Below are positions 464 to 11,100 of a stretch of DNA of 11,243 bases, piece after piece. The notes under the pieces are model-generated. The model was not told the origin of the DNA and did not search any database. It was given only the letters and a program-made list of their open reading frames with translations. The first letter of the stretch is position 1, and the number at the start of each line of letters is the position of its first letter. Source of the DNA: an uncultured Bacteroidota bacterium. Its GTDB lineage: Bacteria > Bacteroidota > Bacteroidia > Chitinophagales > Chitinophagaceae. Made by a program: the position numbers and the translations under genes. The stretch spans positions 1 to 11,243 of the forward strand of contig CAINEG010000146.1 of NCBI GenBank assembly GCA_903847655.1, written 5' to 3'.

Positions 464-883
464 ATGGATATAGATGAGGTTTTATGTGATTGCTCAAATG
501 ATCGGTTAGTGGAATTTATCACTAAGCATGAATCTAATTTGTCAATAGAAATTGTGATTGCTCCAAAACTGGGAATGACAATGGTTCAAGCTGAAGATTC
601 TATTGATTTTCAACCCTTTTATTTAGGTGAAGTACTTATTACAGAATGTCAAATATCAGTAAATGGCCAATTGGGATATGGTTATTGTATGGGCGATGCA
701 CCTCAAAGGGCTTACTGTATTGCTATCATAGATGCCCTTCTTCATTCCGAAGTGCCTACTTTGTTAAAAGAGGTGGAACATTTTATAGCAGAAGAAAAAG
801 AGCTATTGCTAAAACAAAAACTAGAAGAGTACAATCAAGTATTAAAAACAAAAGTGGATTTTAAAATAATGGAACAAGACTAA
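464..883 (+). CDS. phnG: PhnG, C-P lyase core complex subunit
   Basis: This small cytoplasmic subunit (139 aa; E. coli PhnG has 150) belongs to the PhnGHIJ core, where it supports PhnI in transferring ribose triphosphate from ATP to a phosphonate. Recognisable parts are 'LGEVLITECQ' at 54-63, 'GQLGYGYCMGDAPQRA' at 68-83 followed by 'IIDALLHS', and the C-terminal 'KVDFKIM' (130-136), which corresponds to the family's RVDF ending. The ATG at 464 is the first possible start because an in-frame stop lies at 455-457. No Shine-Dalgarno sequence precedes it. The protein has five cysteines (8, 10, 62, 75, 85), which is many for its size. It is the first gene of the operon, with phnH beginning 1 bp after its stop. 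Confidence 0.93.
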   Translation: MDIDEVLCDCSNDRLVEFITKHESNLSIEIVIAPKLGMTMVQAEDSIDFQPFYLGEVLITECQISVNGQLGYGYCMGDAPQRAYCIAIIDALLHSEVPTLLKEVEHFIAEEKELLLKQKLEEYNQVLKTKVDFKIMEQD

Positions 884-884
884 T

Positions 885-1499
885 ATGATTAAAGAAGTAT
901 CATTTGACCCCATTTTTGATGCACAACAGGCATTTAGAGTTTTATTAGATGCATTTAGCCATCCTGGAAAAATTTATTCATTTGAGCAATATGCTTTAAA
1001 TCAGCCCACTGAATTATATCCCAGTAATGCCATTGTGGCTTTATCTTTATTTGATAATAATATTAGCTTCCATACTGCAAGTTCCTATAATGAAAATGTA
1101 GCAACCTATATTCATTTAAATACAAGTTCTAATATTGAAGTCATTGAAAAAGCAGATTATGTTTTTTTAAATGGCAGTAATGACATTGCTCACTTGATTA
1201 ATGAATGTAAAATTGGCGAGCTTTCATATCCTGAAAAAAATGCCACCATAATTATAAGTGTTGCTCAAATAAGTGCAAGTACTATCGATGATTATAATTT
1301 TCAATTAATATTATCTGGACCAGGTATCAAATCTGAAAATATATTATTTGTGCATGGTTTATCGATTGAAACCATTCAAAACATTGTATCCTTAAATACT
1401 GAATTCCCATTGGGAGTAGACATACTTTTGACTGATGCTTTTGAAAATATATGTTCAATACCGAGAAGTATTGTATTACAAATAATTCAAAAAAATTAG
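885..1499 (+). CDS. phnH: PhnH, C-P lyase core complex subunit
   Basis: Core-complex subunit of 204 aa (E. coli 194), cytoplasmic, needed with PhnG, PhnI and PhnL for the first step of phosphonate activation. The N-terminus 'PIFDAQQAFRVLLDAFSHPG' (9-28) matches the characteristic DAQ-FR-LL-A-S-PG opening of the family. 'LSGPGI' at 143-148 and 'FPLGVDILLTD' at 174-184, followed by 'SIPRS' at 191-195, match the family's typical C-terminal half. It starts 1 bp after phnG and ends 1 bp before phnI, so the three are almost certainly co-translated. Nothing is truncated or missing. Confidence 0.93.
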   Translation: MIKEVSFDPIFDAQQAFRVLLDAFSHPGKIYSFEQYALNQPTELYPSNAIVALSLFDNNISFHTASSYNENVATYIHLNTSSNIEVIEKADYVFLNGSNDIAHLINECKIGELSYPEKNATIIISVAQISASTIDDYNFQLILSGPGIKSENILFVHGLSIETIQNIVSLNTEFPLGVDILLTDAFENICSIPRSIVLQIIQKN

Positions 1500-1500
1500 T

Positions 1501-2583
1501 ATGGGCTATTTTGCAGTAAAGGGAGGGGCTGATGCGATTGAAAATTCTTTAGCACTATTGGATTTTTATAGACTTAAAGAGGCAACAAGCCCATTAGAAA
1601 TAAATCAAATAGTTTCTCAACTAAGGATTGCGGTTGGAAAAATAATGAGTGAAGGCAGTTTATACGCTCCCGAATATGCTGCCATTGCGATTAAACAAGC
1701 TGAGGGTGATTTATTAGAAGCTGCCTTTATTATAAGGGCATTTAGAACCACTTTAGAAAGAAGGTTTGTTTCGGAAACATTGAACACTAGAGAGATGTTT
1801 GTTCGCCGAAAAATTTCAGCCTCCTTTAGAGAAATACCTGGAGGTCAAATATTAGGGCCCTCTATGGATTATTCCCAAAGAATATTAGATGTAAAAAAGG
1901 CCATTGAGACTAGGGATGATTTTTCACAAATTTTAAAAGCATTTGAAGATAAAATTGATAAAGAAAATTTATTGGACATTACTTATCATGATAAAGTAAT
2001 TGATATTTTAAATAGGGATGGTTTAATACAAAAAGCAGATAAAAACGAAGATCAAAGTTTAGTTGATATCACAAGAGAAGCTATTCGTTTTCCAGCACCC
2101 AGGTCAGCAAGATTACAAATGATGGCGCGTTCTGAAACCGGCGCACTCATGAGTATGGGATATAGTAGCATGCGCGGTTTTGGATCAGTACATCCTACCG
2201 TTGGTGAATTGAGGTATGGTATGGTACCTGTGCGGATTAAAGATCCAAGAGGACGTATTAGGTATATTGGTTCAGTGGAAGTAACAGAAGCTGAAATGAT
2301 TACGGGAACAAAAAAAACAAATGACGCCGAGGTAGCTTTATTTTCAATTGGATATGGTTTATGTTTTGGACAAAATGATACCAAGGTAATTTGTATGGGT
2401 ATATTAGATACTACCTTGCGTAATCCAGATCCTAGTTTACCAGCAAATGATCAAGAATTTGTTTTATACCATAGTGAAGGTATTGAAGCCATGGGATTCA
2501 CCAACCATTTGAAATTACCACACTATGTTACTTTTCAGTCTAGCTTAAATAATGTTAGAGAGGCTGTAGAAAGAAACAAATAA
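1501..2583 (+). CDS. phnI: PhnI, ribose-1-phosphonate triphosphate synthase catalytic subunit
   Basis: PhnI (360 aa; E. coli 354) is the nucleosidase/transferase subunit. With PhnG, PhnH and PhnL it displaces adenine from MgATP with a phosphonate, giving alpha-D-ribose 1-phosphonate 5-triphosphate. It opens with 'MGYFAVKGGADAIENS', as in the family. It contains 'IPGGQILGPSMDYSQRILD' at 116-134 and ends with 'NHLKLPHYVTFQ' at 335-346. His336 and His341 in that motif correspond to the pair (E. coli His328/His333) that holds a Zn ion beside the PhnJ active-site glycine in the known core structure. The catalytic interface is therefore kept on the PhnI side even though PhnJ is altered. It starts 1 bp after phnH; a 24-bp gap, the largest between genes here, separates it from phnJ. 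Confidence 0.95.
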   Translation: MGYFAVKGGADAIENSLALLDFYRLKEATSPLEINQIVSQLRIAVGKIMSEGSLYAPEYAAIAIKQAEGDLLEAAFIIRAFRTTLERRFVSETLNTREMFVRRKISASFREIPGGQILGPSMDYSQRILDVKKAIETRDDFSQILKAFEDKIDKENLLDITYHDKVIDILNRDGLIQKADKNEDQSLVDITREAIRFPAPRSARLQMMARSETGALMSMGYSSMRGFGSVHPTVGELRYGMVPVRIKDPRGRIRYIGSVEVTEAEMITGTKKTNDAEVALFSIGYGLCFGQNDTKVICMGILDTTLRNPDPSLPANDQEFVLYHSEGIEAMGFTNHLKLPHYVTFQSSLNNVREAVERNK

Positions 2584-2607: not shown

Positions 2608-3510
2608 ATGATTGACCAAAATAAATTTGCAACACAATATAGGTTTGCTTTTATTGATGAAGCAACAAAACGTGAAATAAGGAGAAAATTGTTAAAAGCA
2701 ATTGCTATCCCTGGTTATCAAGTACCTTATTCATCACCAGAAATGCCCATTGCTAGAGGTTGGGGAACAGGAGGGTTGCATGTAACCCTAGCCATTATTG
2801 GCCCTAAAGATATTTTTAAAATTATTGATCAAGGTAGTGATGCTAGTGTGAACGCTTGTAATTTGAGAAATTTTGTACACACCATGACGGGCGTAGAAAC
2901 TACTTTAGATACCCAAAAGGCAACCATTATACAAACAAGGCATCGAATTACAGAAGAAGTTTTAAAAGCAAATCAAATTTTTGTATACCAGGTTCCTCAG
3001 CCAGAGCCTTTAAGAAGTGTAGAGCGGTATGAAAATAAAACAAGACAAATGCATGGAGAAGCCGACTATGCAAAAATGTGGGTTTCCTTATACGAACAAT
3101 TTGTAAGACATGGCGATATTATGTTAGGGGCTGGATATCCTGTAAAAGTAAATGGTCGTTATATTATGGCACCTTCTCCTATTCCAAGATGGGATATCCC
3201 CAATTTAAATAATTCAGAAGCCATTCATTTATTTGGTGCAGGGAGAGAAAAACGTTTGTATGCAGTGCCTCCTTATACAAAAGTGGAGCCTTTAGAATTT
3301 GAAGATGTCAAGTTCCACATAGAAGACTTTAAAGGTATCCCTTGTTTTAGAACAGGATATAAAAAAGCATTCCTAGACGAATTATATTATGATGATGGAT
3401 CTAAACACTATGTAATTAATGATAGTAATTTCTTAGACAAATTAGTGAATCAAGAAACACCTATTCAACACGAAAATGCTTACTTAAATAAAATAGATCA
3501 TGAAGCATAA
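2608..3510 (+). CDS. phnJ: PhnJ-like C-P lyase subunit lacking most Fe-S/catalytic cysteines
   Basis: Classical PhnJ is a radical-SAM enzyme that cleaves the C-P bond of 5-phosphoribosyl 1-phosphonate to give an alkane (methane from methylphosphonate) and 1,2-cyclic ribose phosphate. This protein (300 aa; E. coli 281) aligns throughout: 'AIPGYQVPY' at 33-41 with Gly36 equivalent to radical Gly32, 'GWGTGG' at 51-56, 'IIQTRHRI' at 107-114, 'QVPQPEPLRSVE', 'YPVKVNGRYIM', and 'LFGAGREKRLYAVPPYTKVE'. The family's cysteine signature, Cys241-x2-Cys244-x21-Cys266 plus Cys272 in E. coli, is here Cys246, Thr249, Ile270 and Leu276. Its neighbours (PC, FLDEL, DDGSKHYV, ND) still align, with a single-residue gap. 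The only other cysteine is Cys84. A tail of 24 residues follows Leu276, against 9 after Cys272 in E. coli. The last 11 bp overlap phnK. The family assignment is very safe; the chemistry is in question. Confidence 0.92.
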   Translation: MIDQNKFATQYRFAFIDEATKREIRRKLLKAIAIPGYQVPYSSPEMPIARGWGTGGLHVTLAIIGPKDIFKIIDQGSDASVNACNLRNFVHTMTGVETTLDTQKATIIQTRHRITEEVLKANQIFVYQVPQPEPLRSVERYENKTRQMHGEADYAKMWVSLYEQFVRHGDIMLGAGYPVKVNGRYIMAPSPIPRWDIPNLNNSEAIHLFGAGREKRLYAVPPYTKVEPLEFEDVKFHIEDFKGIPCFRTGYKKAFLDELYYDDGSKHYVINDSNFLDKLVNQETPIQHENAYLNKIDHEA

Positions 3511-4348
3511 TAGTGAAAATTGGTTATTAAAAGTGGAAGGACTGACCAAAGTATATGGTACACCTAATTCAAATTCAATTGATAAGACAGGGCCTTTGTT
3601 TGATTCCAATATTTGTCCTGAAACTAGTGCTATTGTAGCTTGTGCAAAGATAAATTTTGAATTATTTCCAGGTGAGGTATTAGGCATTGTAGGCGAAAGT
3701 GGATCTGGAAAAAGTACAATTGTTAAAATGCTTTATTTTGATATGGAGCATACCAGTGGTCATGTTTTATTTAATAGAGCTCCTTATATTGGAAAAAATA
3801 TATTAAATGAAAGTAATCAATCTAAGAGATCCATCAGAAATCATTTAATGGGTATGGTTTATCAAAACCCAAGAGATGGGTTAAATTTTAAATTTACTTC
3901 AGGAGGAAATATTGCAGAGAAATTGATTATGGCAGGTAACTATCATGTAGGAACCATTAGAGAAAAAGCAACAAACTTATTAGAAAAAACCGAAGTTCCC
4001 GTTTTAAGATTAGACGATTTGCCAGCCCATTTTAGTGGGGGTATGCAACAACGCGTACAAATTTCAAAAGCCATTGCCAATCATCCACCCTTATTATTTT
4101 TAGACGAAGTCACCACTGGTTTGGATGTTTCTGTACAAGCGAAGGTATTGGATTTAATTAGAGAATTACAACAGGAATTAGGCATTGCGATGATTGTGGT
4201 ATCACATGATTTGTCTGTAATTAGAATGCTTACCGATCGAACATTAGTAATGAAAAATGGTCGTATTGTGGAGCAAGGATTAACGGATCAAATATTGCAG
4301 GATCCACAACATCCTTACACTCAATTATTAGTTAGTTCAATTTTATAA
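3500..4348 (+). CDS. phnK: PhnK, C-P lyase ABC-type ATPase
   Basis: PhnK (282 aa; E. coli 252) is an ABC nucleotide-binding protein that docks on the PhnGHIJ core near PhnJ rather than on a membrane permease. Walker A 'GESGSGKST' is at 65-73, the Q-loop 'VYQNPRDGL' at 120-128, the signature 'SGGMQQR' at 179-185, Walker B 'LLFLDEVTTGLD' at 198-209, and the switch 'VSHD' at 234-237. The tail 'DPQHPYTQLLVSS' is the classical PhnK/oligopeptide-type ending. The extra length comes mostly from residues 21-48, inserted before the first core strand. They contain 'TGP', 'NICPETS' and 'VACAK' and look like a decayed zinc ribbon, keeping one cysteine of two expected pairs plus Cys48. The start overlaps the phnJ 3' end by 11 bp, suggesting coupled synthesis. 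Confidence 0.93.
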   Translation: MKHNSENWLLKVEGLTKVYGTPNSNSIDKTGPLFDSNICPETSAIVACAKINFELFPGEVLGIVGESGSGKSTIVKMLYFDMEHTSGHVLFNRAPYIGKNILNESNQSKRSIRNHLMGMVYQNPRDGLNFKFTSGGNIAEKLIMAGNYHVGTIREKATNLLEKTEVPVLRLDDLPAHFSGGMQQRVQISKAIANHPPLLFLDEVTTGLDVSVQAKVLDLIRELQQELGIAMIVVSHDLSVIRMLTDRTLVMKNGRIVEQGLTDQILQDPQHPYTQLLVSSIL

Positions 4349-4349
4349 T

Positions 4350-5048
4350 ATGCATCCATTATTAGAAATAAAGCATTTAAATAAATCTTTTACCATGCAT
4401 ATTTTGCAAGGCAAAATAATTGAGGCATTGGTGGATGTAAATTTTGAAGTTGCTCAGGGTGAAATAATTGGACTAACGGGAAAAAGTGGTTCTGGTAAAT
4501 CAAGTTTAATGAAATGCATTTACAGAACATATTTAAGTGATGGTGGAAATATAAATTATAATGCTATCACAGGTAATGTTGATTTAGTTGCCTTGAATGA
4601 TTATGAAATTTTACATTTAAGAAAAACAGAAATCAACTATTGCTCACAGTTTTTAAGTGTGATTCCAAGAGTAACTGCATTACAAGTAGTTGCACAGCCT
4701 TTATTAAAAAAAGGAATAATGACGAAAGAAGCCAATGAAAAAGCAATGCAAATTTTAAAAGCATTAGGCTTACCCGAAGCATTATGGTCTGGATTTCCCG
4801 TTACATTTAGCGGAGGAGAACAACAAAGAATAAATGTTGCAAGGGCTATTATTGATCCACCTAGATTACTATTAATTGATGAACCCACTGCTTCCTTAGA
4901 TCCAACTACCAAGGATGTAGTAATTGAAATGCTATTAGGTCTAAAAAAATTGGGAAGTACCCTTGTTTGTATTTCACATGATGAATATACTTTAGATCAT
5001 TTGGTGAATAGACGTATACATTTAGAAAAAGGAATAATTATAAACTAA
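4350..5048 (+). CDS. phnL: PhnL, C-P lyase ABC-type ATPase
   Basis: PhnL (232 aa; E. coli 226) is the second non-transport ABC ATPase of the pathway. It is required with PhnG, PhnH and PhnI for formation of the ribose 1-phosphonate triphosphate, and PhnL stacks with PhnK on the core complex. Walker A 'GKSGSGKSS' is at 44-52, the Q-loop Gln100 lies in 'YCSQFLSVIPRVTALQVVAQPLL', the signature 'SGGEQQR' at 154-160, Walker B 'LLLIDEPTASLD' at 173-184 and the switch His210 in 'ISHD'. The 'SQFL-VIPR' segment after the Q-loop and 'PEALW' at 142-146 are typical of PhnL and separate it from the related LolD-type ATPases. The gap to phnK is 1 bp and to phnM 6 bp. All ATPase motifs are intact. Confidence 0.94.
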   Translation: MHPLLEIKHLNKSFTMHILQGKIIEALVDVNFEVAQGEIIGLTGKSGSGKSSLMKCIYRTYLSDGGNINYNAITGNVDLVALNDYEILHLRKTEINYCSQFLSVIPRVTALQVVAQPLLKKGIMTKEANEKAMQILKALGLPEALWSGFPVTFSGGEQQRINVARAIIDPPRLLLIDEPTASLDPTTKDVVIEMLLGLKKLGSTLVCISHDEYTLDHLVNRRIHLEKGIIIN

Positions 5049-5054
5049 TATAAT

Positions 5055-6260
5055 ATGGAAAACTGCTTTACCATTGCAAATGGAAAAATTATAACACCAA
5101 CGGATATTATTGAAAATGGATTTATTTCTGTAGTTGGTAATAAGATTGTAGCTATCGGGAACATGGATGATTATGATTATGATCCCAATTTAGAAGAAGA
5201 CATTATTGATGCTCATGGTCAATATATTTTACCAGGGATCATTGATATTCATACCGACGCATTAGAAGCTGAAATTATACCTAGGCCCGGAGCTGATATG
5301 CCCATTAATGTAGCTTTTAGAGAATTAGAAAGAAAAATGAATGGATGTGGTTTTACCACCGTGTATCATTCCTTACATCTAGGTTATAAAACTGCCGAAT
5401 ATGGTTCAAGAAGTAAATACACCAGGCAACAAGTTTATGACACCATTTTTAAAGCCATGAATGGGGACACTTTAATTAATAATAAAATTCATTTACGTTT
5501 TGAAATAACAGGAGTTGATGCATATGATCAATGTATTGATTTCATTAATAAAGGGTATATACAAATGTTAAGTGTAATGGACCATACACCAGGGCAGGGT
5601 CAATATACCAAGAAAGTGTTTATGGAAGTGAGTATGAAAAATGGGAAAACGGAAGAACAAGCACTTCAAGATTTTGAAGAAAAAGCAAGTAGACCCAATA
5701 TTAAAGGGGATAAGATGAATCAATTAATTCAATTGGCAATACAAAAAGGAATTGCAGTGGCTTCTCACGATGATGATACCATTGAAAAAATTGATGAAAT
5801 GAAAGCATTGGGGGTAAGCATTTGTGAATTCCCTATAAATATGCAAACTGCTGCTTATGCAAATGAACAAAACATGCATGTAATTGGAGGAGCTTCGAAT
5901 GTATTAAGAGGCGGTTCCTTAACGGGTAATTTAAATATAAAAGATGCCATATTAAATGGCCACGTTACTAGTTTATGTTCCGACTATTACCCACCTGCAA
6001 TTTTACATTCTATTTTTAAACTATATTTTGAACATGATTTAACATTAGTGGATACGGTTAAATTAGCCACATTACATCCTGCAGTAGCCGTGGGTATTGA
6101 TCATTATACTGGTTCCTTATCAATTGGAAAAGATGCTGATTTAATTTTGGTAAAATTAATTGACAACATTCCAACCGTAACAAAATGTTTTGTGAAAGGA
6201 AGAAAAACGCTTGAAATACCTCATTATATTAGCTATAACGAAAATACTTATTTAGTATGA
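5055..6260 (+). CDS. phnM: PhnM, ribose 1-phosphonate 5-triphosphate diphosphatase
   Basis: PhnM (401 aa; E. coli 378) is a cytoplasmic amidohydrolase-superfamily enzyme. It removes pyrophosphate from ribose 1-phosphonate 5-triphosphate to give the 5-phosphate that PhnJ uses. It contains the metal-binding 'DIHTD' motif at 64-68, then 'PRPGADMP' at 76-83, 'GFTTVYHSLHLG' at 99-110, 'MDHTPGQGQY' at 175-184, 'ASHDDDT' at 236-242, 'GGASNVLRGGS' at 278-288, and 'LCSDYYPPA' at 307-315 with the final catalytic Asp310. The C-terminal strand 'GSLSIGKDADLILV' is the small beta domain normal in amidohydrolases. The 'HTDALEAE' form differs slightly from E. coli (HTDNLEKH) but fits other PhnM clades. Its stop overlaps the next start by 4 bp (ATGA). 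Confidence 0.95.
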   Translation: MENCFTIANGKIITPTDIIENGFISVVGNKIVAIGNMDDYDYDPNLEEDIIDAHGQYILPGIIDIHTDALEAEIIPRPGADMPINVAFRELERKMNGCGFTTVYHSLHLGYKTAEYGSRSKYTRQQVYDTIFKAMNGDTLINNKIHLRFEITGVDAYDQCIDFINKGYIQMLSVMDHTPGQGQYTKKVFMEVSMKNGKTEEQALQDFEEKASRPNIKGDKMNQLIQLAIQKGIAVASHDDDTIEKIDEMKALGVSICEFPINMQTAAYANEQNMHVIGGASNVLRGGSLTGNLNIKDAILNGHVTSLCSDYYPPAILHSIFKLYFEHDLTLVDTVKLATLHPAVAVGIDHYTGSLSIGKDADLILVKLIDNIPTVTKCFVKGRKTLEIPHYISYNENTYLV

Positions 6261-7078
6261 TACCAGAAAGTACCATACCTATAACCGATTTAAATTATAT
6301 TGACTACCATTATAAACAATGGAAGGAATTAACGTATGAGCAACAGGTGTATAAAGCTAATAATGTAAAACTTGCTAATAATTTTTCATTTATAAATAAT
6401 CAATGGAGTGCGCTACCTTATTATGGTTTTGGGATAATTAGTATATTGAACCAACATGAAAAAAATACGGAGTTAAGTCAAGCATTACTAGACACACAGG
6501 AAAAATTAATGCACTTATTGGAAGAAAAAATAAGTAAAGAAATTCACGAAAAAATATATTTATTACCAGAAAATAGTTTTCATCAAACCATTGCCAATGC
6601 CCTATCTAATACTAAGTATGATTTACAAATAACGGAAAAGGGAATAACGGAAACCTATCCAGAAAAAATAAATAGTTTATTAAAAAATTACAAAAGTGTA
6701 TTTGAACAAAAAACACTTAAGATGAAAATGATTGGGTTAGGGATTTTTGGAAATGCAATAGGTATTTTAGGTGTATTTGATGATCCCTTTGATTACAATC
6801 GTATTTTACAATTTCGAAATCATTTTTATAATAGTGAAATTACGATGGGGTTGGGGATACAAAAAACAAGACCATTTATAGGACATATAACGCTTGCATA
6901 TATAGAGGCTGATTTATCATTGATTGAAAAAAAAGCATTAGTTGAAGTGACCACCACTTTGAATGAACAATGGCAGAATGAAAAACATTCATTTTATATA
7001 GACCATGCGCAATTAACAACTTTTACTAATTTAGCTAGCTTCCACATATTTCAAAATAATCAAATCATATATTTTTAA
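6257..7078 (+). CDS. 2H-phosphoesterase-like protein, phn-associated (possible PhnP substitute)
   Basis: This 273-aa protein has two His-x-Thr motifs about 100 residues apart, each followed by a strand-like stretch: 'FHQTIA' (His109/Thr111) and 'GHITLAYIE' (His210/Thr212). That is the hallmark of the 2H phosphoesterase superfamily, which includes LigT/ThpR RNA cyclic phosphodiesterases and the DUF1045 proteins often found in phn operons. Members hydrolyse 2',3'- or 1''-2'' cyclic phosphates. It is translationally coupled to phnM (4-bp overlap) and the window has no PhnP. I therefore infer that it may open the 1,2-cyclic ribose phosphate released by PhnJ. It has no signal peptide or membrane segment. 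Overall likeness to DUF1045 is weak apart from motifs and context, so the name is left open. The superfamily assignment is likely; the substrate is a hypothesis. Confidence 0.72.
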
Positions 7079-7080
7079 TT

Positions 7081-7734
7081 ATGAATTATTTTGAAACATA
7101 CCCCGAAGGAATTAATATCGCTTTAAAACCTATTTTAAAAAAGGAACCTAATATTCATCCTAGCTGCATTATTAAAAATTCATATCTAGGAGATTATACT
7201 GAGCTCATGATGCATTGTCATATTGTAGAATCAAAATTTGATGATTATAGTTATTGTGCTGGTAATGTTCAAATTATTTATAGTACTGTTGGAAAATTTT
7301 GTTCTATTGCTAATAGCGTTCGCATAAACCCAGGGAATCACCCACAATGGAGGGTGACACAACACCATATGACTTATCGTAGAGTAGCATTTGGATTTGA
7401 TGATACAGATGATACTGAATTTTTTAATTGGAGAAGAGAACATAAATGCACTATTGGACATGATGTTTGGATTGGACATGCCGCAATTATTATGCCAGGC
7501 GTGACAATTGGACACGGGGCTATTATAGGATCAGGTGCTGTAGTCACCAAGGATGTGCCTCCTTATGCTATAGCAGTGGGCGTTCCTGCAAAAGTAATAA
7601 AGTATCGATTTGATGAAACTACTATTGAATCCTTATTGTCCATTGAATGGTGGAATTGGGAACGGGCTCAATTAGAAAAGCATTTTAAAGCGCTAAATGA
7701 TGTTGCATTATTTATTGAAAAATTTAAAGTATGA
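7081..7734 (+). CDS. Hexapeptide-repeat (left-handed beta-helix) transferase of the phn-operon type
   Basis: The 217-aa protein carries hexapeptide repeats around 26-80 and again at 124-160 ('[18 protein letters not shown]', '[19 protein letters not shown]'). They are separated by a loop holding '[18 protein letters not shown]' (83-100) and an acidic stretch with 'FFNWRREH'. This arrangement matches CatB-like acyltransferases and closely fits the subfamily annotated as phosphonate-metabolism hexapeptide transferase in other phn operons. His87 is the likely catalytic base by analogy with CatB enzymes. By analogy with PhnO, it may acetylate aminoalkylphosphonates or a toxic intermediate; that role is inferred. 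It starts 2 bp after the 2H gene and overlaps the first phnD by 4 bp, placing it between catabolic and transport genes. It is cytoplasmic and full length. Confidence 0.85.
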
Positions 7735-8636
7735 TGAAAAAACTTTTATTTCTCCTAATATTAATTACTATACTCACTAGTTGTGGTAATAATAATTCAA
7801 AAACAACTTCTGTATTAAGAGTTGGTATTTATAGTGGTGATCAACCCATACAAACCAAAGAAAAAATAAAAGGGTTTCAACAATATTTAGAAAAGGAATT
7901 AAAAATGCCCGTTGAATTTGTTTTTACTTCTGATTATACCACACTAGTGGAAGGAATACAAAGAGATAAATTAGATGTGGTGCAGCTTTCTCCTTTTGCG
8001 TATGTATTAGCAACTCAAAAGCCTTGTTTGGTTCCTTTAGTAACGATTGCCGAAAATAAAATTAGAACCGAATACCATAGTTTTATATTCACTTATGGAT
8101 CTTCAAAAATTAATAATATTGAAGATTTAAAAAAACATGCAAAGGAATTAACACTTTGTTTTGCTGATCCAGCTTCCGCATCGGGCCATTTAATTCCAAG
8201 AGCCTATTTAAAAAGTATTGGCTTAGACCCTGAGAACAGTTTTAAAGAAGTGATTTTTGCTGGAAGCCATCCTGCATCAATGTTAAGTGTTAAAAATAAA
8301 AAAATTGATATCGGCTGTTCCACTACTGAATTAGGTTATCAACGCTTAGTTATCAACGGAGGCATTAAGGAAGGTGAATTAAAATCGTTGTGGGTTTCTG
8401 ATCCAATCATCAATGATGCCATTTGTGCAAACAAAAATTTGTCTACTACTTTAATTGAAAAAATTAAAAAGGCCTACTTGGAAGTGGATCAAAAAGATCC
8501 AAAAGCATTTGCAGGTTCGGTATCAAGGTATTACTCTGATGCAAGTCATATGCAGTTTATTCCTACCTATGATAGCTTATATAATAACATAAGAAATATT
8601 GCAGAAAGTATTAAAGAATTAAAAACAATAAAATGA
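7731..8636 (+). CDS. phnD: PhnD1, phosphonate ABC transporter substrate-binding lipoprotein
   Basis: This 301-aa protein begins with two Lys, a hydrophobic run and the lipobox 'LTSC' (Cys18), so it should be lipid-anchored and periplasm-facing. The mature part is a PhnD-type type-II binding protein. It has '[11 protein letters not shown]' at 67-77, '[13 protein letters not shown]' at 85-97, the phosphonate-cradling helix start '[11 protein letters not shown]' at 146-156, '[20 protein letters not shown]' at 176-195 and 'LWVSDPI' downstream. The family's usual S-T-S-G is S-A-S-G here. The translation start could be ATG 7731 or ATG 7734; 7731 gives the 4-bp coupling overlap with the preceding gene. 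A paralogue follows directly. The substrate could be phosphonate, phosphite or a phosphate ester; context favours phosphonate. Confidence 0.92.
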
Positions 8637-9556
8637 AAAATTTAATTATTGCCTTAGTATTATTGATTTTTATTTCCTGTAACAATAAATCTGAATTGGA
8701 TTCCAATGGAGAGCCTAAAGTTTTGACCATTGCCATTTTTGGTGGTAGTGGTGATAATAAAGGTTCGGTTAAAAAAGCAATGGAACTGTTTAAAGTATAT
8801 TTACAAAAGAAATTAAATAAGGAAGTAAAATTTTATATCGCAACCGATTATACCGCTGTAATTGAAGCACTACACGCTAAAAAAGCGCACATAGGATATT
8901 TAAGCCCCTTTTCCTATGTATTGGCTGCTCAAAAAAAGGATATAACGCCTTTGGTAGTCATTGGACAAAATGGGAAACCCAGTATGTACCATAGTATAAT
9001 ATTTGCAAGTGTTAAGTCGGGTATTTCCAATTTAGATCAATTAAAAAACAATGCTAAAAATTTATCATTATCTTTTTCAGATCCTGCATCAGCATCAGGA
9101 CACTTAATACCATTTGCATTTTTACAGTCAATTGGTTTAGACCCAGATAAAAAGTTTAAACAGGTGATGTTTTCTGGTAGTCATGCAGCAACCGTTTTAT
9201 CAGTTACCTCCAACAAAATTGACATTGGATGTTCCACCAAAGAATATGGAACTGATATTTTATTAAGGAAGGGTTTAATTAAAAAAGAAGATTTTATGAT
9301 ATTATGGGTATCAGAACCTATAGTCGCCAGCCCCATTGTAATTAGGAATGATATTGATGTAAAATTTGCAGAAAAAATGAAAAATATATATTTGAATTTA
9401 AATACCGATGATTCCACAGTATTTAAATCCTATATAAGTTTATATCATACTAATGCAAATGAATTATCTTATATGACTACTCATGACTCCTTATACAATG
9501 GAGTTAGATCTATTGCAAATGGTATTAAGGATATTGAATTACTAAAAAAACATTAA
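8633..9556 (+). CDS. phnD: PhnD2, second phosphonate substrate-binding lipoprotein
   Basis: This 307-aa tandem paralogue of the preceding gene has a short signal peptide and lipobox-like 'FISC' (Cys16; Phe at -3 is less usual). It shares the same landmarks: 'TDYTAVIEAL' at 71-80, 'YLSPFSYVLAAQK' at 89-101, '[11 protein letters not shown]' at 150-160, 'FSGSHAATVLSVTSNKIDIG' at 180-199 and 'LWVSEPI'. The two copies match over most of the mature protein but differ in the segments between motifs, for instance SDPIIND in PhnD1 and SEPIVAS in PhnD2, and in the N-terminal strand (YSGDQ versus FGGSG). The likely origin is an old duplication with divergence in ligand preference. The start overlaps the previous stop by 4 bp (ATGA), and phnC begins 1 bp after its stop. 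Confidence 0.92.
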   Translation: MKNLIIALVLLIFISCNNKSELDSNGEPKVLTIAIFGGSGDNKGSVKKAMELFKVYLQKKLNKEVKFYIATDYTAVIEALHAKKAHIGYLSPFSYVLAAQKKDITPLVVIGQNGKPSMYHSIIFASVKSGISNLDQLKNNAKNLSLSFSDPASASGHLIPFAFLQSIGLDPDKKFKQVMFSGSHAATVLSVTSNKIDIGCSTKEYGTDILLRKGLIKKEDFMILWVSEPIVASPIVIRNDIDVKFAEKMKNIYLNLNTDDSTVFKSYISLYHTNANELSYMTTHDSLYNGVRSIANGIKDIELLKKH

Positions 9557-9557
9557 T

Positions 9558-10319
9558 ATGATTAAGGCAATAGGTATTACCAAAACATTAATGTCTGGAA
9601 AAATACTCTTAAACAATATTTCCTTTGAAGTAAGAAAAGGTGAATTTGTGGGTATTTTAGGTGCGAGTGGTGCAGGTAAAACCTTAACCTTAAAATCTTT
9701 AATTGGATTAATGGAATTAACTGCTGGTGAGGTATGGGTCGAGCAAGAAAATAATCAGCATATTAATATTTATAAAACAAGTTCAAAATCATTAAAAAAA
9801 TTAAGAAGTAAAATTGCATTAATTTTTCAGGGTTATCATTTGGTACAACGCGCTAATGCAATTGATAATGTATTAATGGGAAGATTGGGATCCATATCCA
9901 CATGGAGAAGCTTATTTATTGGTTTTAATGAACAAGAAAAAAGCGAAGCGGTAATGGCTTTAGAACGTGTTAATATGCAATCCTTTGCTTATACAAGAGT
10001 AAGTGCTTTAAGCGGAGGGGAAAAACAAAGAGTCGCTATTGCAAGAGCCTTGTTTCAACAACCCAATTTATTATTAGCCGACGAACCCATTTCCAATTTA
10101 GATCCAAAAAATGCCAAAACAATTATGGCTTTGTTAAAAGAGCTTTCTATTTTTTTTCCAGTTATTGGTGTATTTCATCAACCTGAATTATGTGCAAAAT
10201 ATTGTACGCGGATTATTGCAATTAAAGACGGAGCCTTATTTTATGATGGCAAACCCAACTTAGATGAAAAAACTTTAGAAGATATTTATGGTGAAGAGCT
10301 TTCTAGTATTTTACAATAG
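9558..10319 (+). CDS. phnC: PhnC, phosphonate ABC importer ATPase
   Basis: The 253-aa ATP-binding subunit powers import through the PhnE permeases. Walker A 'GASGAGKT' is at 35-42, Q-loop Gln91 lies in 'IFQGYHLVQRANAIDNVLMGRLG' (89-111), the signature 'LSGGEKQRVAIARAL' at 151-165, Walker B 'LLLADEPISNLDP' at 171-183 and the switch His207 in 'VFHQPE'. The 'NVLMGRLG' plus 'WRSLF' pattern (104-120) is diagnostic for PhnC among importer ATPases. By contrast, PhnK and PhnL upstream serve the lyase complex. It sits 1 bp after phnD2 and 13 bp before phnE1, at normal family length. Confidence 0.94.
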   Translation: MIKAIGITKTLMSGKILLNNISFEVRKGEFVGILGASGAGKTLTLKSLIGLMELTAGEVWVEQENNQHINIYKTSSKSLKKLRSKIALIFQGYHLVQRANAIDNVLMGRLGSISTWRSLFIGFNEQEKSEAVMALERVNMQSFAYTRVSALSGGEKQRVAIARALFQQPNLLLADEPISNLDPKNAKTIMALLKELSIFFPVIGVFHQPELCAKYCTRIIAIKDGALFYDGKPNLDEKTLEDIYGEELSSILQ

Positions 10320-10332
10320 CTGAAGAAGCAAC

Positions 10333-11100
10333 ATGATTAAAAAAATTACATACCTATTTATTATATCAGCAATAATCATTGCAACTTACTTTTCAATGGT
10401 GGTGTGTGGATTTCAAGTAAGCGCGTTACAAAAGGGGTTACATGATAGTTTGGTTTTTATTCAGCAAATGTTTCCTCCAAGTTGGGACGATTTTAAAGAT
10501 TTATGGAACCCAGCATTAGAAACAATTGCCCTAGCTTTATTGGGTACTTTTTTGGGAAGTATATTATCTTTTGTAATCGCCATTTTTGGGGCAAGTAATT
10601 TGTCGAATAAATGGGTTAAACAAATTGTTCGATCTTTTATAAGCATTGAACGTTCGATACCCGAATTATTTATTTTATTGATATTAATTGCAGCATATGG
10701 CCTAGGTGCATTATCGGCAGTACTTGCTTTAATGATAGGATGTATTGGAATGTTAGGTAAACTTTTTGCTGATGCAATGGAAGAAACACCTAGCGCTGTT
10801 ATTGAATCTTTAAAAGCTGCGGGTGCCAATAAAATTCAAATTATCTATTTTGGTATTTTACCTGACATATTTCCTAAGCTTTTATCTTATAGCTTGTTTA
10901 GATTTGAAATAAATATTCGATTATCCGTGATGTTAGGTGCCATTGGAGCTGGGGGGATTGGCTATGAATTAGATTATGCATTTAATATGTTGCAATTTCA
11001 TAGAGCACTTTCCTGCTTAATGGTTGTTCTTGTATTAGTAATTGTTATTGAGCAGAGCTCTATTTATATCAGAAAAAAATTAGCAACTCAACAATTATAA
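10333..11100 (+). CDS. phnE: PhnE1, phosphonate ABC importer permease
   Basis: This 255-aa inner-membrane permease has hydrophobic segments near 5-26, 61-88, 112-144, 195-215 and 226-245. It contains the ABC-importer cytoplasmic loop: 'ERSIPELFILLI' (106-117) and the EAA-type motif around 153-175, 'AVIESLKAAGANKIQIIYFG', which contacts PhnC. 'FRFEINIRLSVMLGAIGAGG' (189-208) is very typical of PhnE. Length agrees with the family (about 250-280). The ATG at 10333 follows a purine-rich 'GAAGAAG' at 10322-10328, the only upstream sequence in the operon that faintly resembles a ribosome-binding site. A second permease gene starts 2 bp after its stop, so the channel is probably a heterodimer of two PhnE proteins. 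Confidence 0.93.
   Translation: MIKKITYLFIISAIIIATYFSMVVCGFQVSALQKGLHDSLVFIQQMFPPSWDDFKDLWNPALETIALALLGTFLGSILSFVIAIFGASNLSNKWVKQIVRSFISIERSIPELFILLILIAAYGLGALSAVLALMIGCIGMLGKLFADAMEETPSAVIESLKAAGANKIQIIYFGILPDIFPKLLSYSLFRFEINIRLSVMLGAIGAGGIGYELDYAFNMLQFHRALSCLMVVLVLVIVIEQSSIYIRKKLATQQL

Follow-up and report, generated by a model that had tools for sequence, protein, structure and literature searches.

PhnJ without its cluster and thiyl cysteines: a conserved branch of C-P lyase that may act at the Zn/His site

The phnJ gene of an 11,243-nucleotide stretch of uncultured Bacteroidota DNA (contig CAINEG010000146.1; here "the window", meaning the whole stretch that was analysed) encodes a subunit of carbon-phosphorus (C-P) lyase that lacks three of the four cysteines assigned to the [4Fe-4S] cluster and the thiyl radical in the radical S-adenosylmethionine (radical-SAM) mechanism of this enzyme. 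The loss is a conserved state rather than a mutation and recurs in further clades of PhnJ, while the substrate and Zn-site residues are retained. On balance we favour the reading that the window encodes a functional, cluster-free C-P-lyase complex that would act at the Zn/His site. The variants make up a large, apparently functional branch of C-P lyases without the cluster and radical cysteines, for which the accepted mechanism would be either inapplicable or incomplete.

Residues 10-276 of the window PhnJ align to residues 6-272 of E. coli PhnJ with one 1-residue gap per side (phmmer), and E. coli Cys241, Cys244, Cys266 and Cys272 fall on Cys246, Thr249, Ile270 and Leu276. Two of the three [4Fe-4S] ligands (Cys241, Cys244 and Cys266) are absent, the position of the thiyl Cys272 is taken by leucine, and the only cysteines in the whole chain are 84 and 246. 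The features concerned are the following.

2608..3510, + strand: phnJ, without three of the four cluster/thiyl cysteines (300 residues; PF06007, 423.9 bits against a cut-off of 25)
2713..2715, + strand: Gly36 of PhnJ (E. coli Gly32, the proposed glycyl radical site), present
2857..2859, + strand: Cys84 of PhnJ, almost invariant (161/162) in the window's own clade, called clade A below
2938..2946, + strand: Arg111-His112-Arg113 of PhnJ (E. coli 107-109), present
2989..2991, + strand: Gln128 of PhnJ (E. coli Gln124, a ribose contact), present
3313..3450, + strand: PhnJ C-terminal domain, residues 236-281, the former four-cysteine site (from alignments; predicted local distance difference test score, pLDDT, 92-97 for blocks 241-290)
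3343..3345, + strand: Cys246 (E. coli Cys241), the sole remaining site cysteine (codon TGT)
3352..3354, + strand: Thr249 at the E. coli Cys244 position (codon ACA)
3415..3417, + strand: Ile270 at the E. coli Cys266 position (codon ATT)
3433..3435, + strand: Leu276 at the E. coli Cys272 (proposed thiyl) position (codon TTA)

The original prediction had described an intact, colinear PhnJ with these substitutions, and every residue it named is right by the E. coli alignment and the codons; Gly36, the Arg-His-Arg motif and PhnI His336/His341, which it took to be retained, were all located as codons, Cys84 is a feature that it left unmentioned, and profile matches across phnG-M bear out its statement that the rest of the operon is complete. 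A canonical [4Fe-4S]/thiyl site is impossible in the window PhnJ, as ligands and Cys272 are absent. The AlphaFold model (mean pLDDT 88.0) superposes on E. coli PhnJ across residues 10-283, with structure matches to 7z18, 7z19 and 4xb6; by this prediction the fold of the C-terminal domain outlasts the loss of its cysteines. Modelled in isolation this domain was poor (pLDDT 64); the order of its strands and helix, taken by itself, would liken it to a treble clef. Foldseek matches to ribosomal chains were weak (E near 1) and were discounted as evidence.

The substitutions are shared by the relatives of the window. All of the best 120 of 8000 scored homologues carry Thr or Ser at 249, Ile or Val at 270 and Leu or Met at 276, and Cys246 is present in 121/121 when the window is included. 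In a genome scan, the best 80 of 247 confirmed loci were analysed. The clade that contains the window, clade A (loci L001-L041), consists, going by record titles, mostly of Bacteroidota, Verrucomicrobiota and Acidobacteriota; all three cysteines are gone in 40 of its 41 loci, L035 retaining the second, and outside it 36/39 loci have all four, the exceptions being L044, L045 and L072. Across clade-A PhnJ, Cys246 is retained in 162/162 and Cys84 replaces E. coli Val80 in 161/162, a cysteine at E. coli position 80 being found also in a few canonical (four-cysteine) sequences. Two further changes are confined to clade A: Arg40 to Pro (161/161 with a residue at that position) and Gln54 to His (162/162), both in E. 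coli numbering. One clade-A record, L014, is titled Beijerinckiaceae bacterium, but its phn operon is of the Bacteroidota type; a mistake in binning or labelling is the probable cause.

Beyond clade A, three more clades lack the cysteines. Clade B comprises Chloroflexota, Thermus thermophilus HB8 and Alphaproteobacteria; clade C is Chloroflexota with the pattern CSAA; clade D consists of three proteins without the third and fourth cysteines, one of them also without the second. On an IQ-TREE tree of 86 sequences selected from 453 PhnJ, built with the C-terminal domain excluded, clades A and B are supported at 99 and 96, their sister relationship less well (86), and clades C and D are placed among canonical sequences. 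This tree requires 3 changes; a quicker FastTree tree of the 453 sequences gives 7, minor ones included, and we adopted the lower count of losses. Approximately unbiased tests rejected a single clade A+B+C+D (p 0.012) as well as A+B+C (p 0.011), so that by these sequence-based tests a single origin of the cysteine loss is rejected.

Searches from the exceptional loci extended the picture. With L072 as query, 120/120 of the best 120 of 7976 matches lack the three cysteines and 9/120 lack the first too; few of these are named, and those mostly Chloroflexota. With L044 as query, 107 of the best 120 of 7999 have all four cysteines, and the other 13 show CSAA (6), CGCC (3), CSVR, CCVR, CCAR and CSCA (1 each). 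Among twelve named records fetched for comparison, variant PhnJ is encoded on pVV8 of Thermus thermophilus HB8 and on plasmids of Haematobacter, Nitratireductor, Mesorhizobium AR07 and Sinorhizobium B11, and canonical PhnJ in E. coli, S. meliloti, Paracoccus, Variovorax, Mesobacillus, Haloferax and Natronorubrum. Taxonomy samples were drawn around a seed genome, and their counts include the seed and some genomes known beforehand. PhnJ was found in 37/400 Chloroflexota genomes (38 copies, 12 variant and 26 canonical, never both kinds together), in 9/350 genomes of the order of Mucilaginibacter polytrichastri (9/9 variant, 5 known beforehand), in 6/337 Verrucomicrobiota (3 variant, of which 2 known beforehand, and 3 canonical), in 1/347 Acidobacteriota (the seed, variant) and in 1/395 genomes across the phylum Bacteroidota (the seed). 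Plasmid pOT1-5 of Haematobacter massiliensis (L140), an organism of clade B, holds a canonical and a variant operon, each with a full phnG-M and separated by about 18 kb; integrases and transposases are encoded both between the two and next to them. This shows that both kinds can coexist, a hint that they are not simply interchangeable.

What the variants kept is as specific as what they lost. In 150 canonical PhnJ, 61 positions are fixed at at least 99%; exactly three of them, 244, 266 and 272, have been lost in each of clades A (n=162), B (n=126) and C (n=8). 54/61 stay at at least 90% in all three clades, and positions 54, 111, 202 and 215 drop below 90% in one clade each. Arg107, Arg109, Gln124 and the loop 47-50 are retained in variant PhnJ, as is His108 in all but one sequence, and Gly32 is present in 160/162 clade-A sequences (the others being one gap and one Cys), 126/126 of clade B and 8/8 of clade C. 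In the 50 PhnI examined from clades A-C, His328 and His333 of the predicted Zn site are retained. PMC9947105 describes E. coli structures in which Arg107-109, Gln124, the loop 47-50 and the PhnI histidines bind a product analogue and Zn, and in which the cluster site lies about 30 Å from Gly32, a distance unchanged when the complex opens. One review has Zn standing in for the intact cluster (PMC7916636). We considered Cys246 as an essential catalytic residue, an idea weakened by Ser or Asp at this position in 9/126 clade-B members. The corresponding features of the window PhnI are:

1501..2583, + strand: phnI (PF05861, 427.4 bits), Zn-site His231, His336 and His341 (E. coli 219, 328 and 333) retained
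2506-2508 and 2521-2523, + strand: codons of PhnI Zn-site His336 and His341

Strong selection acts on variant PhnJ. Between the window and L001, outside the C-terminal domain, the nonsynonymous rate (dN) is 0.023 and the synonymous rate (dS) 1.37, a dN/dS of about 0.02, and further close pairs are similarly low, with dS saturated in many. The genes phnG-L are complete in 34/41 clade-A loci, the other 7 being interrupted by contig ends. Genes that would serve the following steps are also present, with relatives of the 2H phosphodiesterase in 23/41 clade-A loci and PhnN kinase in 13/41 (two of the 13 were checked, both above the TIGR02322 cut-off). No second phnJ was found in 28 of 29 genomes searched (26 from clade A and 3 from other variant groups; five of the 28 are isolates by title, and many of the 29 are metagenome-assembled genomes, MAGs, possibly incomplete). 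The 29th, G011, has a second phnJ (L094) that is internally deleted, lies in two frames and also lacks the cysteines; this genome is a MAG bearing the rather doubtful title Bacteroides fragilis. A four-cysteine phnJ elsewhere in the genome, one of the outcomes by which the original prediction was to be refuted, was not seen in these 29 genomes, whereas Haematobacter of clade B does have a canonical operon besides. Its question whether PhnJ without the four-cysteine pattern forms a clade with conserved substitutes is answered in the affirmative, and on a broader scale than had been expected, in further clades too.

Could the cluster or the radical come from elsewhere? In Thermus HB8 there are zero cysteines in PhnG, H, I and M and one each in PhnJ, K and L; among clade-B PhnJ, 87/126 have one cysteine and 2/126 none. 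A search for a relocated cluster, by cysteines conserved at at least 80% in PhnG-M, gave for clade A PhnG 10, 37, 62, 75 and 85, PhnI 288 and 298, PhnJ 84, 96 and 246, PhnK 39 and 48, PhnL 56 and 98 and PhnM 308, and for clade B (5-6 loci) PhnH 60, PhnI 334 and PhnJ 246, of which Thermus has only that of PhnJ. Individual clade-B subunits are richer in cysteine, e.g. five in PhnH of L090. Cysteines at PhnG 62, 75 and 85, PhnI 298 and PhnL 98 are common in clade A and rare in canonical loci. The conserved PhnG cysteines leave a small probability of a relocated cluster in clade A, which we regard as unlikely. No frame of at least 150 residues with the strict radical-SAM motif was found in 44 variant loci, whose flanks are unequal in length, and whole genomes were not searched for an activase; with a looser motif the 80 loci yielded nine frames, of which eight belong to canonical loci and a single one, on the minus strand of L032 and apparently spurious by eye, to a variant locus. 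The clusters of flanking frames that were scanned gave nothing redox-like tied to the variant, and many look antisense or spurious by eye. Supply of the cluster in trans, which had been put forward as an option, is thus unsupported in the operon flanks and, for Thermus, in the complex, a genome-wide search not having been made.

A joint loss in PhnK was also considered. Residues 23-48 of PhnK (window 3566-3643) form an insert that carries C-x2-C...C-x2-C in 32/36 canonical loci; in clade A its length is kept and three of the four cysteines are lost, the first of the second pair remaining, and in the window the second of that pair is Thr, as in PhnJ. The insert is degenerate in clade A and missing in L044, L045 and L072. 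The idea was dropped and coupling to PhnK rejected, as E. coli, S. meliloti, Paracoccus, Variovorax, L053, L062, L073 and L074 have no insert and yet have all four PhnJ cysteines.

In the cluster-free reading, PhnJ retains its fold, and its substrate site is complete: Arg111/His112/Arg113, Gln128 and the loop Gly-Trp-Gly-Thr are all there, opposite the Zn on the PhnI histidines. Its C-terminal domain would be a metal-free structural element in which Thr/Ser and two hydrophobic side chains replace the three cysteines. PhnG, I, L and M would most likely make the phosphoribosyl phosphonate, which the PhnI-PhnJ Zn/His site would convert to ribose 1,2-cyclic phosphate 5-phosphate with no PhnJ-bound cluster: the ribose 2'-OH would attack phosphorus, the organic group would leave, and the ribose phosphate would then be recycled by phosphodiesterase and PhnN kinase. 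We infer the reaction, the product and the absence of a PhnJ-bound cluster from catalysis; a cyclic product at the Zn/His site is suggested because the 2H phosphodiesterase and PhnN, which suit such a product, remain. A wider proposal is tentative, and we would sooner bet against it: that the C-P bond (or its equivalent) may be broken at the PhnI-PhnJ Zn/His site, the radical-SAM site having been deleted more than once and the four-cysteine domain being dispensable, perhaps a structural metal site or a late add-on, so that the textbook mechanism would fail for these lineages and maybe be incomplete even in E. coli.

Several points weigh against a cluster-free complex. Published E. coli biochemistry, summarised in PMC7916636, assigns a catalytic role to the cluster and Cys272, and the literature consulted reports activity for none of the variants. 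Gly32 is retained although a non-radical enzyme would not need it, a structural role being possible; the Arg40 and Gln54 changes lie in or near the active-site loop, so the clade-A reaction may differ; and the pOT1-5 pair would fit a change of substrate no less than a change of mechanism. In most close pairs the C-terminal domain is also under weaker constraint and changes faster than the remainder of the protein (dN/dS 0.033/0.38 against 0.020/0.55 for L025-L026, and 0.138/0.79 against 0.051/2.13 for L039-L040).

The strongest rival, possible and rather unlikely in our estimate, is a different or narrower reaction, in which unactivated C-P bonds would no longer be cleaved, the cyclic phosphate is still made and only leaving groups that depart without a radical are handled (carbanion-stabilised phosphonates, phosphite, P-N or P-S compounds). 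That exactly the radical-chemistry residues are lost while the Zn site is intact would fit it, as would the two full operons of pOT1-5 and the clade-A changes at Arg40 and Gln54; clades B and C, however, are without such active-site changes, and the substrate class looks unchanged because the window retains PhnM, the acyltransferase of the hexapeptide type and the transporter for phosphonates. We think it improbable that the radical is supplied in trans, another radical-SAM enzyme activating Gly36 and Cys246 (with Cys84) taking the thiyl role: the near-invariance of these three residues in clade A and the several conserved cysteines of clade-A PhnG speak for it, whereas the first cysteine is missing in 9/126 clade-B PhnJ, two of that clade are entirely cysteine-free, and in the variant loci the motif searches described above gave a single frame, which looks spurious.

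Decay towards loss of the gene is very improbable. Loss of catalytic residues is its usual sign, and the truncated copy in G011 and the weaker constraint on the C-terminal domain accord with it, but the low dN/dS outside that domain, the fixed substitutes, the spread over several phyla and the retained operons all speak for a maintained gene, as the original prediction had argued. A sequencing, frame or alignment artefact is hardly credible: the best 120 homologues come from several sources and concur, gaps in the alignment are nearly absent, the structure model superposes, and the nearest cluster (96% identity) represents 84 member sequences, which excludes a sequencing error; no point in its favour was found.

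The gene order in the window is phnG, H, I, J, K, L, M, a 2H-type phosphodiesterase, a hexapeptide acyltransferase, two phnD, phnC and phnE, and the nearest named relatives are Bacteroidota. The genes other than phnI and phnJ are:

464..883, + strand: phnG (PF06754, 92.1 bits), cysteines at 8, 10, 62, 75 and 85
885..1499, + strand: phnH (PF05845, 138.3 bits)
3500..4348, + strand: phnK (ABC_tran; best NCBIfam TIGR02323 PhnK, 242 bits, under the cut-off of 302.85), with a degenerate four-cysteine insert near the N-terminus (residues 23-42)
4350..5048, + strand: phnL (best NCBIfam TIGR02324 PhnL, 255.2 bits, slightly under the cut-off of 256.3)
5055..6260, + strand: phnM, RPnTP diphosphatase (NF011990, 390.8 bits, above the cut-off of 233)
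6257..7078, + strand: 2H-type phosphodiesterase (PF08975, 25.7 bits, above the cut-off of 21; no NCBIfam match), a candidate for opening the 1,2-cyclic phosphate
7081..7734, + strand: hexapeptide acyltransferase of phosphonate operons (TIGR03308, 263.2 bits, above the cut-off of 201.65)
7731..8636, + strand: phnD copy 1 (PF12974, 175.9 bits)
8633..9556, + strand: phnD copy 2 (PF12974, 165.3 bits)
9558..10319, + strand: phnC (best NCBIfam TIGR02315 PhnC, 253.8 bits, under the cut-off of 266.1)
10333..11100, + strand: phnE (TIGR01097, 251.1 bits, above the cut-off of 216.7)

NCBIfam gave no family for the window PhnJ, the window PhnI or the Thermus PhnJ. The two phnD genes at 7731-9556 differ and adjoin, and some relatives have 3 or 4 phnD-like genes; L011 and L018 have a tandem pair of phnM-like genes inside the variant operon. 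On the minus strand, 332-1 encodes the beginning of an endonuclease/exonuclease/phosphatase protein (PF03372, 26 bits, cut-off 24.5) that points away from the operon. Its relatives occur in 12 clade-A loci, in L044, L045 and L072 and in 4 canonical loci, and the protein may act as one more phosphodiesterase in the phosphonate pathway.

C-P lyase is a main microbial route to phosphonate phosphorus and a source of methane in oxic water. PMC9947105 calls its mechanism an unresolved conundrum, as the proposed cluster site is about 30 Å away from the glycyl radical site and the ligand is bound at the Zn site. Complexes that naturally lack the cluster ligands are a test of where the reaction takes place; with three cysteines in all of PhnGHIJKLM, Thermus thermophilus HB8 is a simple experimental object. 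Annotation is affected as well, as the 12 variants among 38 PhnJ copies in the Chloroflexota sample illustrate. Counts of phnJ serve to estimate the capacity for methane production from methylphosphonate (PMC10734540), and two recent papers take the four cysteines for a hallmark of the enzyme (PMC11978286, PMC12413358). Our literature search, which left most subscription papers outside its reach, returned no report of PhnJ without these cysteines.

The closest known system is E. coli PhnJ (PDB 4xb6, 7z15-7z19), which the window protein resembles in whole-chain fold, 50% identity, partner genes, Zn-site residues and Gly32; it differs in lacking Cys244, Cys266 and Cys272 and, with the rest of clade A, in having Pro for Arg40 and His for Gln54. 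Glycyl radical enzymes use separate activases and share with the variants a conserved glycine and one cysteine, but no activase gene is seen near the variant operons and two clade-B PhnJ are cysteine-free. Ribosomal proteins exist with and without Zn cysteines, a small metal domain keeping its fold after ligand loss, as predicted here; their metal is structural, whereas the PhnJ site is held to be catalytic. The radical-SAM mechanism of C-P lyase is reportedly due to Kamat and Raushel. It is summarised in PMC7916636 and PMC9947105; relative to it, the window PhnJ has the equivalents of Gly32 and Cys241 but neither the three-cysteine cluster site nor the thiyl cysteine. The window protein is PhnJ by family, fold and operon, yet it lacks residues by which the radical-SAM PhnJ mechanism is defined.
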